Of a stretch of DNA of 64,000 nucleotides, positions 48,756-53,351 are shown piece after piece. The position numbers and the translations under genes were made by a program. Position 1 is the stretch's first letter. Each line of letters opens with the position of its first letter. This DNA comes from Phormidium tanganyikae FI6-MK23 (lineage in GTDB: Bacteria; Cyanobacteriota; Cyanobacteriia; Leptolyngbyales; Leptolyngbyaceae), in assembly GCA_019359175.1 (NCBI GenBank), contig JAHHHU010000021.1:1-64000 (forward strand). Reading direction: 5' to 3'. The notes under the pieces are model-generated. The model was not told the DNA's origin. It made no database searches and was given only the letters and a program-made list of their open reading frames with translations.

Positions 48756-49831
48756 TGAAAAAACTCGATCGACGTTTGGTATTTGGGCTGATTGCGATCT
48801 CCGTGGTCATTGCCCTCACGCTGTTTATCGCGCCCAGAAGCAACCGAATTACGAGCGGCTCCACGTTTAGTCGTTCTCCCGATGGTTACGGGGCTTGGTA
48901 CGCCTATATGCAGCAACAGGGAACGCCCATTGAGCGCTGGCGCAAATCTCCAAATGAGATCGATCAAATCTCAGGAACGGGAAACACGATGATTCAAGTC
49001 GATACCTCTGGGGTTGGGGCAGCATATCCCGATGAAGATTGGATCAAGCGCGGCAATACCTGGATCGTTTTGGGAAAAAGTAATTTTGCGGCGACTGAGG
49101 CAGGATTTTTGACGCGGCATCAAAGCGATCGAGGATCGGTCAAAATCGAAACCTCCAGGCGACTTGAAATGGATAAAGGAGTGAAACAGATTTTAGGCGA
49201 TCGCTTTGGGTCGATCATTTGGGAGGAACGTAAAGGCAAAGGTCGAATCGTTTATGCCGTCACTCCGTTTCTCGCTGCCAATGCTTACCAAGATGAGCCT
49301 GGAAATTTTGCGTTTTTGGCGCAATTAGCAACTGGGAAAAAGATTTGGATCGATGAATACCTGCATGGCTATCGGGATGAAACTGCCAAAACGGAAAGCA
49401 CACAAACTTGGGCAGATTATCTGATCAGAACGCCTTTATCTGTCGGATTGCTGCAAGCGATCGTGATTTCTCTCATTCTAATTTGGGCAAAGAATCGTCG
49501 ATTTGGACAACCGAAACCGCTCGAAAGTCCGCGCGTGAATGATAGCGAAGCGTATACGCAAGCGTTGGCGGGTGTGTTGTACAAAGCGGGACGGAGTGAA
49601 TTTGTCGTTGATGTGGTCGGGCGTGAGGAGCAATTGCGGATTCAGAGATCGCTCGGTGTGGGGGGGACATTGCTCGATCGAGAAGCGTTGATCAATGCCT
49701 GGGTGCAACAAACCGGAAGACCTGCCGCAGAACTGGCGCAGCTTTTCCCAGAGAAACAGCGATTGAGTGAGCAAGAATTAATCAAGTGGCTGGCTCAAGT
49801 GAAAGAGATCAAGCAACATCTTCCAATTTGA
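48755..49831 (+). CDS. DUF4350 membrane protein
   Basis: 358 aa from ATG 48755, which overlaps the DUF4129 stop by 1 nt. An N-terminal helix (about 8-26), a GATase-like extracytoplasmic domain (SPDGYGAWYAYMQQQGTPIE, GNTWIVLGKSNF), a second helix (about 230-250) and a C-terminal helical part ending in EIKQHLPI. Function unknown. A degenerate copy of its last 22 codons lies 1.7 kb downstream at 51531-51596. Confidence 0.87.
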   Translation: MKKLDRRLVFGLIAISVVIALTLFIAPRSNRITSGSTFSRSPDGYGAWYAYMQQQGTPIERWRKSPNEIDQISGTGNTMIQVDTSGVGAAYPDEDWIKRGNTWIVLGKSNFAATEAGFLTRHQSDRGSVKIETSRRLEMDKGVKQILGDRFGSIIWEERKGKGRIVYAVTPFLAANAYQDEPGNFAFLAQLATGKKIWIDEYLHGYRDETAKTESTQTWADYLIRTPLSVGLLQAIVISLILIWAKNRRFGQPKPLESPRVNDSEAYTQALAGVLYKAGRSEFVVDVVGREEQLRIQRSLGVGGTLLDREALINAWVQQTGRPAAELAQLFPEKQRLSEQELIKWLAQVKEIKQHLPI

Positions 49832-49876
49832 ATGCTAGATCTGGTTAATCAATGTTAGATTGCAAAACAAGCACAG

Positions 49877-50536
49877 ATGCCAAGTTCTACTTCTAGGTAT
49901 CGCGATTGGGTAGACAAGCGGAATGATCCGCTTGATCGGAAACAGATTGCCTACGCTGCACTCGACGCATACGAAGAGATCGCAAATCGCGATCTCATTC
50001 AACTCGATGACCTTACACCGATTATTACTGCTGCAAAGAGCCAGTATATGACCGTCTGGGATGTTGGCACCGTCTTCCTCGTGCGATTAGCTGAAACTCA
50101 TATTGCTGCACAGGGAGCAATGCTAGAAATAATGGACTCCCCAAAGGCAAAGGAGCGATTGCACCTCATTTGGGCGTTAACAGCACGATTGCCTGAAGAC
50201 TTTCGCATGAACATAATCCGCAAAGCAATTTCTGATCGTGCTAAGCGTGTCCGCACAATAGCCGCTGCAAAGGCTGACCTATTCGGATTCAAAGAATTGC
50301 TCCTCGAACTCGAAGCGCAACGCGACCGAGAGAGCGATGACGACGTTAGAAACACTCTTCAGTTTCATATCGTCATGCTTCGCAGTGGGTACATTCTAGA
50401 ACGCGACGCTGACGGTAATCCTTGCCTGAGCGTTCGCACGAAGAATGGCTGGACAAGTCCCCGCATTACCCAAGAAGACATTGATCAAGGTAGACTGGGA
50501 TCGAAAATCGAGGAGATGCAGACCAAGGATTATTAG
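49877..50536 (+). CDS. HEAT-repeat-like hypothetical protein
   Basis: 219 aa, soluble, mostly helical; repeated helix pairs (ERLHLIWALTARLPEDFRMN, then SDRAKRVRTIAAAKADLFGF) suggest HEAT-like scaffolding. C-terminal LSVRTKNGWTSPRITQEDID. No family named. Comparison with the degenerate duplicate downstream suggests that this gene was inserted between DUF4350 and the 50640 gene. Confidence 0.65.
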   Translation: MPSSTSRYRDWVDKRNDPLDRKQIAYAALDAYEEIANRDLIQLDDLTPIITAAKSQYMTVWDVGTVFLVRLAETHIAAQGAMLEIMDSPKAKERLHLIWALTARLPEDFRMNIIRKAISDRAKRVRTIAAAKADLFGFKELLLELEAQRDRESDDDVRNTLQFHIVMLRSGYILERDADGNPCLSVRTKNGWTSPRITQEDIDQGRLGSKIEEMQTKDY

Positions 50537-50639
50537 TGAACTCAAGAAAGCTATTCCAGATTCTATAACTTAGAGATTAAGAACTATATATAATTGTTCA
50601 GTTAAAGTAGAAAAAGCAAGTTGCAATGAGGTCAAACTG

Positions 50640-50912
50640 ATGGCAGTTCGCCAACGCCGTTACAGTAAAGAAGAATTGGCTCGACGTGGGCAAGAACTCT
50701 ATGAGTCTGGCATTCGGCAGCAAGTCGAAACCGGAAACGAGAGCAAAATTGTGGCGATCGACCTCGAAACCGGGGCCTTCGAGGTCGATGAAAATCTCGT
50801 ACCCGCAACCAATCGCCTGTTTGAGCAATATCCTGATGCTCAACCTTGGGCAATTCGGATCGGACATCGCGCCGTTGATCATTTTGGGGCACGGAGTCTG
50901 AAGCAGAATTGA
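50640..50912 (+). CDS. Partner of retropepsin-like protein (antitoxin-like)
   Basis: 90 aa. Very basic N-terminus (MAVRQRRYSKEELARRGQEL) and an acidic, structured C-terminal half (KIVAIDLETGAFEVDENLVP, then WAIRIGHRAVDHFGARSL). The pair with the following aspartic-protease-like gene recurs in cyanobacterial genomes from memory, with overlapping ends. The role is unknown; the layout resembles a toxin-antitoxin-like module. A truncated relative lies at 51638-51757. Confidence 0.75.
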   Translation: MAVRQRRYSKEELARRGQELYESGIRQQVETGNESKIVAIDLETGAFEVDENLVPATNRLFEQYPDAQPWAIRIGHRAVDHFGARSLKQN

Positions 50913-51220
50913 TGATTTACGGAGTTGTGAATTCACGTCGTGAAGCAACGCTTCCACTGGTAGTTGGGAACTCAACAGGACAACGGCAATTGATCGATAC
51001 GGTGATTGATACAGGATTCAGTGGGTTTTTATCTCTACCATCCGCGATGATTGCTACCCTCGATTTACCCTGGAGCGCTTCTGATATCGTGACCTTGGGC
51101 GATGGCAGTGAAACTCTATTCGATCTGTACCCTGCAACTGTGATTTGGGATGGGCAGTACCGCGAAATTTATATTGCAGAATCAGAAACAGAACCTTTGT
51201 TAGGAATGGCATTACTCTAA
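50912..51220 (+). CDS. Retropepsin-like clan AA aspartic protease
   Basis: 102 aa from ATG 50912, overlapping the preceding stop by 1 nt. The active-site motif VIDTGFSGFLSLP (D-T-G) and a flap-like stretch DGSETLFDLY, then a C-terminal PLLGMALL matching the retropepsin ILG/LLG motif. One such domain would act as a homodimer. The substrate is unknown; the neighbouring partner gene may bind or be cleaved by it. Confidence 0.82.
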   Translation: MIYGVVNSRREATLPLVVGNSTGQRQLIDTVIDTGFSGFLSLPSAMIATLDLPWSASDIVTLGDGSETLFDLYPATVIWDGQYREIYIAESETEPLLGMALL

Positions 51221-51430: not shown

Positions 51431-51530
51431 TGGTTATCGATTACAGGTTGATGCGATCGAGGGTGGTAGCGTTAAGATCGAGCTATTGTGATGCTTGCGA
51501 GCGCAGTAGAACTGAAGAAAAACAGCGATC

Positions 51531-51596
51531 GGTGAGCAAAAGTTACGCAAGTGGATCGCTCAAGTACGGGAAATTAAACAACATCTTCCGACTTGA
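51531..51596 (+). pseudogene. Duplicated 3' fragment of the DUF4350 gene
   Basis: 22 codons ending in TGA read GEQKLRKWIAQVREIKQHLP, closely matching the C-terminus of the DUF4350 protein (SEQELIKWLAQVKEIKQHLP). Upstream, GAAAAACAGCGATC resembles the preceding codons with a one-base shift. It is a decayed copy, followed after 41 nt by a truncated copy of the 50640 gene. Confidence 0.75.
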
Positions 51597-51637
51597 ACTT
51601 GAGATGAAAGCTTAACCTTTAAAGCGAGTTCAAGCAT

Positions 51638-51757
51638 GTGACAGTTCGACAGCCTCGATACGACAAAGAGAAAATTGCTCGGCGTGTGCGTGAGATTTAC
51701 AAGTTGCAAGCGCGTGCTGCTTTGCAGATGCCGTCAGGGTCGCAAGCCGAAGATTGA
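51638..51757 (+). pseudogene. Truncated copy of the 50640 gene
   Basis: 39 codons from GTG 51638 (MTVRQPRYDKEKIARRVREI) to TGA. The first 21 residues share about 12 identities with the start of the 50640 protein, then the sequence diverges and stops at less than half length. With the DUF4350 fragment it forms a degenerate duplicate of the region above. Confidence 0.65.
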
Positions 51758-52994: not shown

Positions 52995-53351
52995 TTATTC
53001 TTCAATTACTTCGCGGATGCGGCGCTCCAGACGGTCTAGATCCAATCCACCCTCATCGCGAGTAAAGCGGCGTACCGTCCCATTCGCTTGCTGAAGATCG
53101 TTAAGCAAATCGCGTAAAATCTCCTGCTGCTGACGCGATTGCGTCACTTCGCGCGGCTCCTGCACCAAATCTCGCACGATCGAATCTTCAGCACGGGATG
53201 CAACAATTGGATCAGTCTGTCCCTGAATCTGAACAAACGTCCGGCGACCCGGGCCCCGCTCTTCTTCGATGGGAATCACAGCCGTCACTTGGTCAGACCG
53301 CACATACTTACCAAACCCTAAGTGAACGAGAACAGACGATTGAATTCGCAT
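52995..53351 (-). CDS. RemA-like (DUF370-type) small protein
   Basis: 118 aa. The N-terminal VLVHLGFGKYVRSDQVTAVI and RGPGRRTFVQIQGQ segments recall the beta-rich GFGN core of RemA/DUF370 DNA-binding regulators, but the second half is a long helical extension (QSRQQQEILRDLLNDLQQAN, then LDRLERRIREVIEE). The similarity is moderate; the protein may be a cyanobacteria-specific relative with unknown function. Confidence 0.55.
   Translation of the reverse strand: MRIQSSVLVHLGFGKYVRSDQVTAVIPIEEERGPGRRTFVQIQGQTDPIVASRAEDSIVRDLVQEPREVTQSRQQQEILRDLLNDLQQANGTVRRFTRDEGGLDLDRLERRIREVIEE

Follow-up and report, generated by a model that had tools for sequence, protein, structure and literature searches.

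An overlapping gene pair of a small basic protein and a predicted retropepsin-like protease in cyanobacteria: a candidate toxin-antitoxin-like module

The closest described parallels to the locus presented here are the type II toxin-antitoxin systems, as regards gene layout, and the retropepsin-like proteases of clan AA, as regards the protease that it encodes. To our knowledge, few bacterial retropepsin-like proteases have been characterized, and a retropepsin would be an unusual toxin for a toxin-antitoxin system. Those of interest here are Rickettsia APRc and Pseudomonas RloA/RimB. RloA is reported to be secreted and to be encoded in one operon with two other proteins, one of them transmembrane and one of the ATP-grasp type (PMC12239564). 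The pair described below comprises gene A, coding for a small basic protein, and gene B, coding for the protease. It resembles the type II systems in having small overlapping genes with a plausible antidote first, in being multi-copy and plasmid-borne, in the occurrence of putative orphan antidotes, in a putative toxin gene that is rarely intact alone, and in its patchy distribution: within a set of 244 genomes from the same phylum as the window, 52 contain a match to A and 52 a match to B. It differs in that no DNA-binding domain was recognized in A, and in that its putative toxin is a retropepsin-like protease.

The window, that is, the whole stretch of 64,000 nucleotides analyzed, carries one copy of the pair on its forward strand (Table 1). 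The first-pass annotation had described a small protein with a basic N-terminus and a D-T-G protease-like partner, the genes of which overlap by a single nucleotide, and all three statements hold. The overlap is found in the sequence TGATG, the basic stretch of A reads VRQRRYSKEE, and B contains the motifs VIDTGFSGF (V-I-D-T-G-F) and LLG. The start codon of B is the ATG at 50912-50914 and the stop codon the TAA at 51218-51220; an alternative TTG start is listed at 50909. By visual inspection of the window and 42 other stretches, a TAAAAT-like box approximately 35-50 nt 5′ of the ATG is seemingly present in most A leaders, and the DNA further upstream looks unrelated between loci.

Table 1. Features of the A-B locus and its immediate surroundings (window coordinates)
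Feature	Position	Strand	Remarks
Gene A	50640-50912	+	90 aa + TGA stop; proposed antidote or partner
Gene B	50912-51220	+	102 aa; D-T-G retropepsin-like (clan AA); proposed toxin
A leader	50598-50639	+	-10-like TTAAAGT at 50602-50608; resembles the short leader of other A genes
Diverged copy of the DUF4350 gene 3′ end (49750-49832)	51516-51597	+	65/83 positions identical
Relic of a second A gene	51641-51730	+	first ~30 codons only; E 0.065 and 9.7e-4; 36/51 nt identical

The window B is short at its C-terminus, a feature that had been missed in the first-pass annotation. Full-length relatives are about 20 residues longer (...MALLYGYRLQVD..GGIVKIEAL); the window protein ends at alignment column 102, and the strands found at 105-109 and 116-121 in the model of a relative are missing. 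In retropepsins the last two strands help form the dimer sheet. Because these strands are absent, the window B is probably inactive, an already dead copy, and the locus is probably no working pair; the window A would then probably be an orphan antidote left beside a dead B.

B is predicted to be a retropepsin-like protease from the fold of a full-length relative. The window protein scores 45.9 bits against TIGR03698 (clan_AA_DTGF), below the cut-off of 57.35, which is exceeded by the relatives L083 (58.6 bits), L017 (59.0 bits) and L004 (77.3 bits). The D-T-G triplet is invariant across 35 aligned B proteins, the window's included, all of them preselected by a D-T-G pattern. The model of L017 (mean pLDDT 93.6) has a retropepsin fold; its best match among solved structures is Rickettsia APRc (5c9b; Foldseek E 1.2e-4), with retroviral proteases ranking next, and the RloA structures 9g58 and 9g59 are also among its fold matches. 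The sequence profile of B gave no match to solved structures, though the fold comparison found one. The window B thus shares with the TIGR03698 members of clan AA the D-T-G and LLG motifs and, through its relative, the predicted fold; it differs from them in its score, in lacking the last strands and in its partner A, which matches no NCBIfam model. From RloA, B differs in the apparent lack of a signal peptide (by eye) and in having A as its operon partner.

The window A gave no match in Pfam, NCBIfam or PADLOC, each searched at E up to 1, nor in PHROGs. Its model (mean pLDDT 78) consists of a long helix and then the succession strand-strand-helix-strand-strand, for which the fold search returned no clear match (Foldseek best E 1.3; VIA-align best Z 3.6). 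Sequence profiles of A produced only chance-level matches to solved structures, a result with which a known fold is still compatible. The window B had no PADLOC match, and a PHROGs search with six proteins yielded one weak match of unknown function (E 0.06). No A was found in the phage records searched, and neither A nor B in three scans of viral contigs. Membership in a known defence or phage family was rejected, PADLOC, PHROGs, phage records and viral-contig scans having given nothing useful.

The pair had been taken to be recurrent, and this has proved correct. The genome to which the window belongs contains six A genes, counting that of the window, in addition to the relic in Table 1. A species-genome scan for relatives of A found 82 loci, of which 80 were kept, and 68 of these hold a full-length A. 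Because of these numbers the pair is more than chance; chance or mis-called open reading frames are ruled out by its recurrence as a pair and by the purifying selection on both genes. The named relatives of A are nearly all from cyanobacteria, and most A proteins are 65-90% identical to that of the window; the two-gene cassette as such is distributed over cyanobacteria, some Planctomycetota, and plasmids. In the window's genome only the B at C33 is strictly intact, as judged by coordinates and stop counts; the others are truncated (window), interrupted at the N-terminus (C75), reduced to remnants (C76 and C3) or absent (C16). Taking the six and the 68 together, 55 of the 74 full-length A genes, again with the window, are followed by a D-T-G frame, which is absent from 19, several of which retain B remnants. 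The ATG of B lies 4 nt before the end of A in 38 of the 55 loci, 1 nt before it in 15, and further downstream in two. In 53 of the 55 loci B starts from an ATG of its own inside the overlap, an arrangement of overlapping, small, co-directional genes such as is found in type II toxin-antitoxin systems.

The decay of the pair is one-sided: B is rarely intact without A, and A is often without an intact B. In the phylum set, "strong" denotes the best 107 A rows and the best 70 B rows of the profile matches. Strong full-length A genes number 96, of which 59 have a strictly intact B, at least 18 a damaged B, and 19 no B among the matches listed; B-start remnants (E < 0.01) occur at two of these 19 loci. 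For 59 of the 61 strictly intact B genes, an intact A lies upstream in the same orientation; measured between match ends, the distance is no more than 30 nt in 57 cases and 173 and 1133 nt in the remaining two. The first-pass annotation had counted the frequent occurrence of either gene alone against a joint module; A is indeed often without an intact B (37/96), whereas B without an intact A is rare (2/61, under strict rules in all 244 genomes). The 37 A genes are spread over 24 genomes and the two B genes over two. One of the latter (G116:C98) is an intact B beside a damaged A, in a single open frame (241 codons); its contig is 4.8 kb long and comes from an assembly comprising approximately 350 contigs. 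The other (G211:C8) has no A, and its B has lost the D-T-G. The asymmetry of 37 against two has a binomial p of 1.9e-7 relative to the expectation from gene length, a value inflated by kinship between the genomes.

With a looser rule for intact B, superseded by the strict one, under which the window's truncated B counts as full, 65 of 67 B genes have an intact A and 65 of 96 A genes a full B. Ten "partial" A genes stand beside a full B under this rule; nine are weak matches to diverged A and the tenth is G116:C98. In the set of 80 loci collected from A, an intact B was found beside 41 of 64 intact A genes and beside none of 11 broken ones (p 5.8e-5); because related genomes were counted, both p-values overstate the independence of the cases. 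One of the 11 (L058) is classed as broken solely for a missing start codon; damage is seen in its B as well. Contig ends led to the exclusion of five of the 80 loci; in two of them (L043 and L082) A is cut by the contig end and B is intact. At two further loci the disruption looks like an insertion: at L192 (G002:C1) A and a full-length B are approximately 1.1 kb apart, and at L177 (G097:C30) B is split by approximately 0.5 kb, to both sides of which a few profile positions match.

Judging from substitution rates, purifying selection acts on both genes of intact pairs. In 96 comparisons among 37 intact pairs (dS 0.2 to 1.2), the median dN/dS was 0.108 for A and 0.115 for B. Twelve A genes without an intact B, from the 80-locus set, gave values of 0.07-0.25 against their nearest paired relatives, which cannot date the loss. 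Four orphan A genes without any B match (L164, L166, L168, and L169) gave pairwise values of 0.09-0.20, from which it follows that selection maintains some A genes in the absence of B. In five of the six comparisons among them homology is confined to approximately 310-340 nt, corresponding to A and about 60 nt upstream. The homologous stretch extends to 605 nt between L166 and L168, and L164 and L168 have an additional block of 509 nt in common elsewhere. Orphan antitoxins also occur among toxin-antitoxin pairs. Some of the A genes without B may never have had one and, since A alone is common and conserved, A may have a job of its own.

The rarity with which the protease gene is intact without its partner suggests a poison-antidote pair. 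With moderate confidence, we propose that the two genes form a toxin-antitoxin-like module in which B would act as a cytosolic protease harmful to the cell, with A as its antidote. Comparison of the sequences supplies the coupled pairing, the predicted fold of a relative, the cassette-like spread, the carriage on plasmids, the purifying selection and the one-sided decay; to these we add, by inference, that both genes are on one message, that B is toxic and is inhibited by A, and that there is a trigger. A would be made first, from the same message as B, and would bind B and hold it inactive, possibly through a cap over the edge strands by which two B molecules pair as a dimer. Unchecked, the protease activity of B would harm the cell; loss of A, upon plasmid loss, stress or phage takeover, would free it. 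The first-pass annotation had suggested a protease-based toxin-antitoxin or regulatory module. That the pair is a recurrent module built around a retropepsin-like protease is well supported, and several of its traits agree with toxin-antitoxin behavior, namely the tight overlap, the mobile cassette, the plasmids and a B rarely intact alone.

The main rival to the toxin-antitoxin reading is a regulatory protease with a helper. Here A would be the dedicated partner (adaptor, folding helper, substrate, or zymogen-like regulator) of a non-toxic protease, and B, being useless without A, would decay. We regard this as a serious, if tentative, possibility. The similar purifying selection on both genes is in keeping with it, translational coupling suits a complex of fixed ratio, and the fusions of DUF5678 to retropepsins (L273, L276, and L286) are as compatible with a built-in regulator as with an antidote. 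However, an A serving only B should decay after the loss of B, and some orphan A genes remain under selection; the extreme turnover of the neighborhood and the partition genes next to the pair would also be unusual for a housekeeping protease.

DUF5678 (PF18929) bears on both readings in that it, too, is a small protein encoded before, overlapping or fused to retropepsins. A search of seven genomes with PF18929 gave 23 matches in six of them, and 20 loci were fetched. In at least nine of the 20, DUF5678 is fused to a retropepsin-motif frame (the three fusions above), overlaps it (L281, L285, and L287) or lies no more than 30 nt from it (L280, L282, and L288); L275, where the motif looks like chance, was left out of this count. 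The neighboring proteases mostly have motifs of the D-S-G or D-T-G-A type, in which they differ from B. PF18929 did not match the window A, found no A gene in the window's genome and matched one of 46 A proteins at E 0.052, short of Pfam's threshold. When profiles were compared, a broad A alignment matched the DUF5678 proteins with a probability of 78.7% (E 1.7e-5) and a narrow one with only 2%; two control comparisons gave 0.1%. It is plausible from these profiles that A and DUF5678 are distant homologues. A wider view, in which A and DUF5678 would constitute one protease-control superfamily and, with the retropepsins, a large undescribed class of protease-antidote modules having an aspartic protease as the killer, is speculative and in our opinion less likely than not; separate pairs, plasmid-borne or chromosomal, would then act as toxin-antitoxin systems, and the fused proteins would restrain themselves.

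The surroundings of the pair suggest that it spreads as a mobile cassette. Among the 80 loci, any flanking open reading frame (100 codons or more, within up to 3 kb on each side) is common to only 38 of 3160 locus pairs. Nine plasmid records contain A, nine contain B, and 22 contain a diverged B. We opened 19 regions on 18 plasmids, for which the following neighbor counts are raw. Annotated partition genes adjoin the pair in five of the 19, and in a sixth region an unnamed gene has the same size and place; an integrase or recombinase gene lies within the stretch in eight, and RelE/ParE-type genes are found nearby in two. One of the 19 regions has A without an annotated B. On a plasmid of Nostoc sp. 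MS1 (L216) the pair is flanked by pglZ on one side and pglX on the other, within a BREX-1 locus.

This last position, together with the patchy, mobile, and multi-copy nature of the pair, would suit an anti-phage abortive infection module, in which A would be removed or inactivated upon infection, leaving B to cleave essential proteins. Such a role seems unlikely: BREX is the sole named defence system in the 19 plasmid regions (NB-ARC and patatin-like genes being left aside), PADLOC recognized neither protein of the window, and the idea overlaps with the toxin-antitoxin explanation. A remnant of a gag-pro-like retroelement, brought to mind by a small basic protein followed, after a tiny overlap and in the -1 frame, by a retropepsin, is highly improbable, given that B nearly always has its own ATG at the overlap (53/55), that the A model shows nothing suggesting a nucleocapsid protein, and that the unit is not accompanied by a polymerase or an integrase, flanking genes being so rarely common to two loci (38/3160).

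The association of the two genes extends to diverged relatives. Fifty-one weaker B matches with no A among the matches listed were inspected individually, and 48 of them (22/22 and 26/29) have a diverged A directly upstream, mostly with a 4-nt overlap. The diverged A proteins have a basic start and can be aligned with A. Of the other three, one is a truncated B and two have a D-T-G-A motif and are taken for another subfamily. Within the group of 22, the B of L197 has lost its start codon while A is still open, and the B of L196 is broken. At L194 (G022:C1) diverged A-B pairs occur three times in tandem.

In two Planctomycetota genomes, chosen for holding A, this gene lies upstream of nine of 17 TIGR03698 matches (8/10 and 1/7). 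In the remaining eight the residues around D-T-G or D-S-G differ, and these proteins seem to belong to other subfamilies. Among 99 genomes drawn around one of the two, four have an A match, that genome counted.

The protease family is already known. What appears to be undescribed in the literature searched is its partner family, the nearly obligate association of the two genes, and the pattern of decay. No description of the A-B pair was found in searches of PubMed Central, a scope outside which lie preprints and most subscription journals. A dedicated, co-mobile partner offers a direct handle on the role of bacterial retropepsin-like proteases and on how they are restrained. Should B be toxic and A its antidote, aspartic proteases would join the effectors of toxin-antitoxin systems, cyanobacteria would possess a candidate plasmid-maintenance system, and retropepsin research would gain a naturally occurring protein inhibitor to study.

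The truncated relative that had been noticed close to the pair is the A relic of Table 1. Both it and, shortly 5′ of it, the copy of the DUF4350 gene end lie downstream of the pair (51516-51730), and we take the two to be what an old duplication has left behind. Positions 49877-50536, separating the DUF4350 gene from A, encode a 219-residue protein, which has a weak match to HEAT repeats (E 0.15) and an NblB-like match (E 0.0042) far below the cut-off. On the minus strand, positions 52995-53351 encode a 118-residue protein with a weak RemA-like match (E 0.0028, below the Pfam cut-off).
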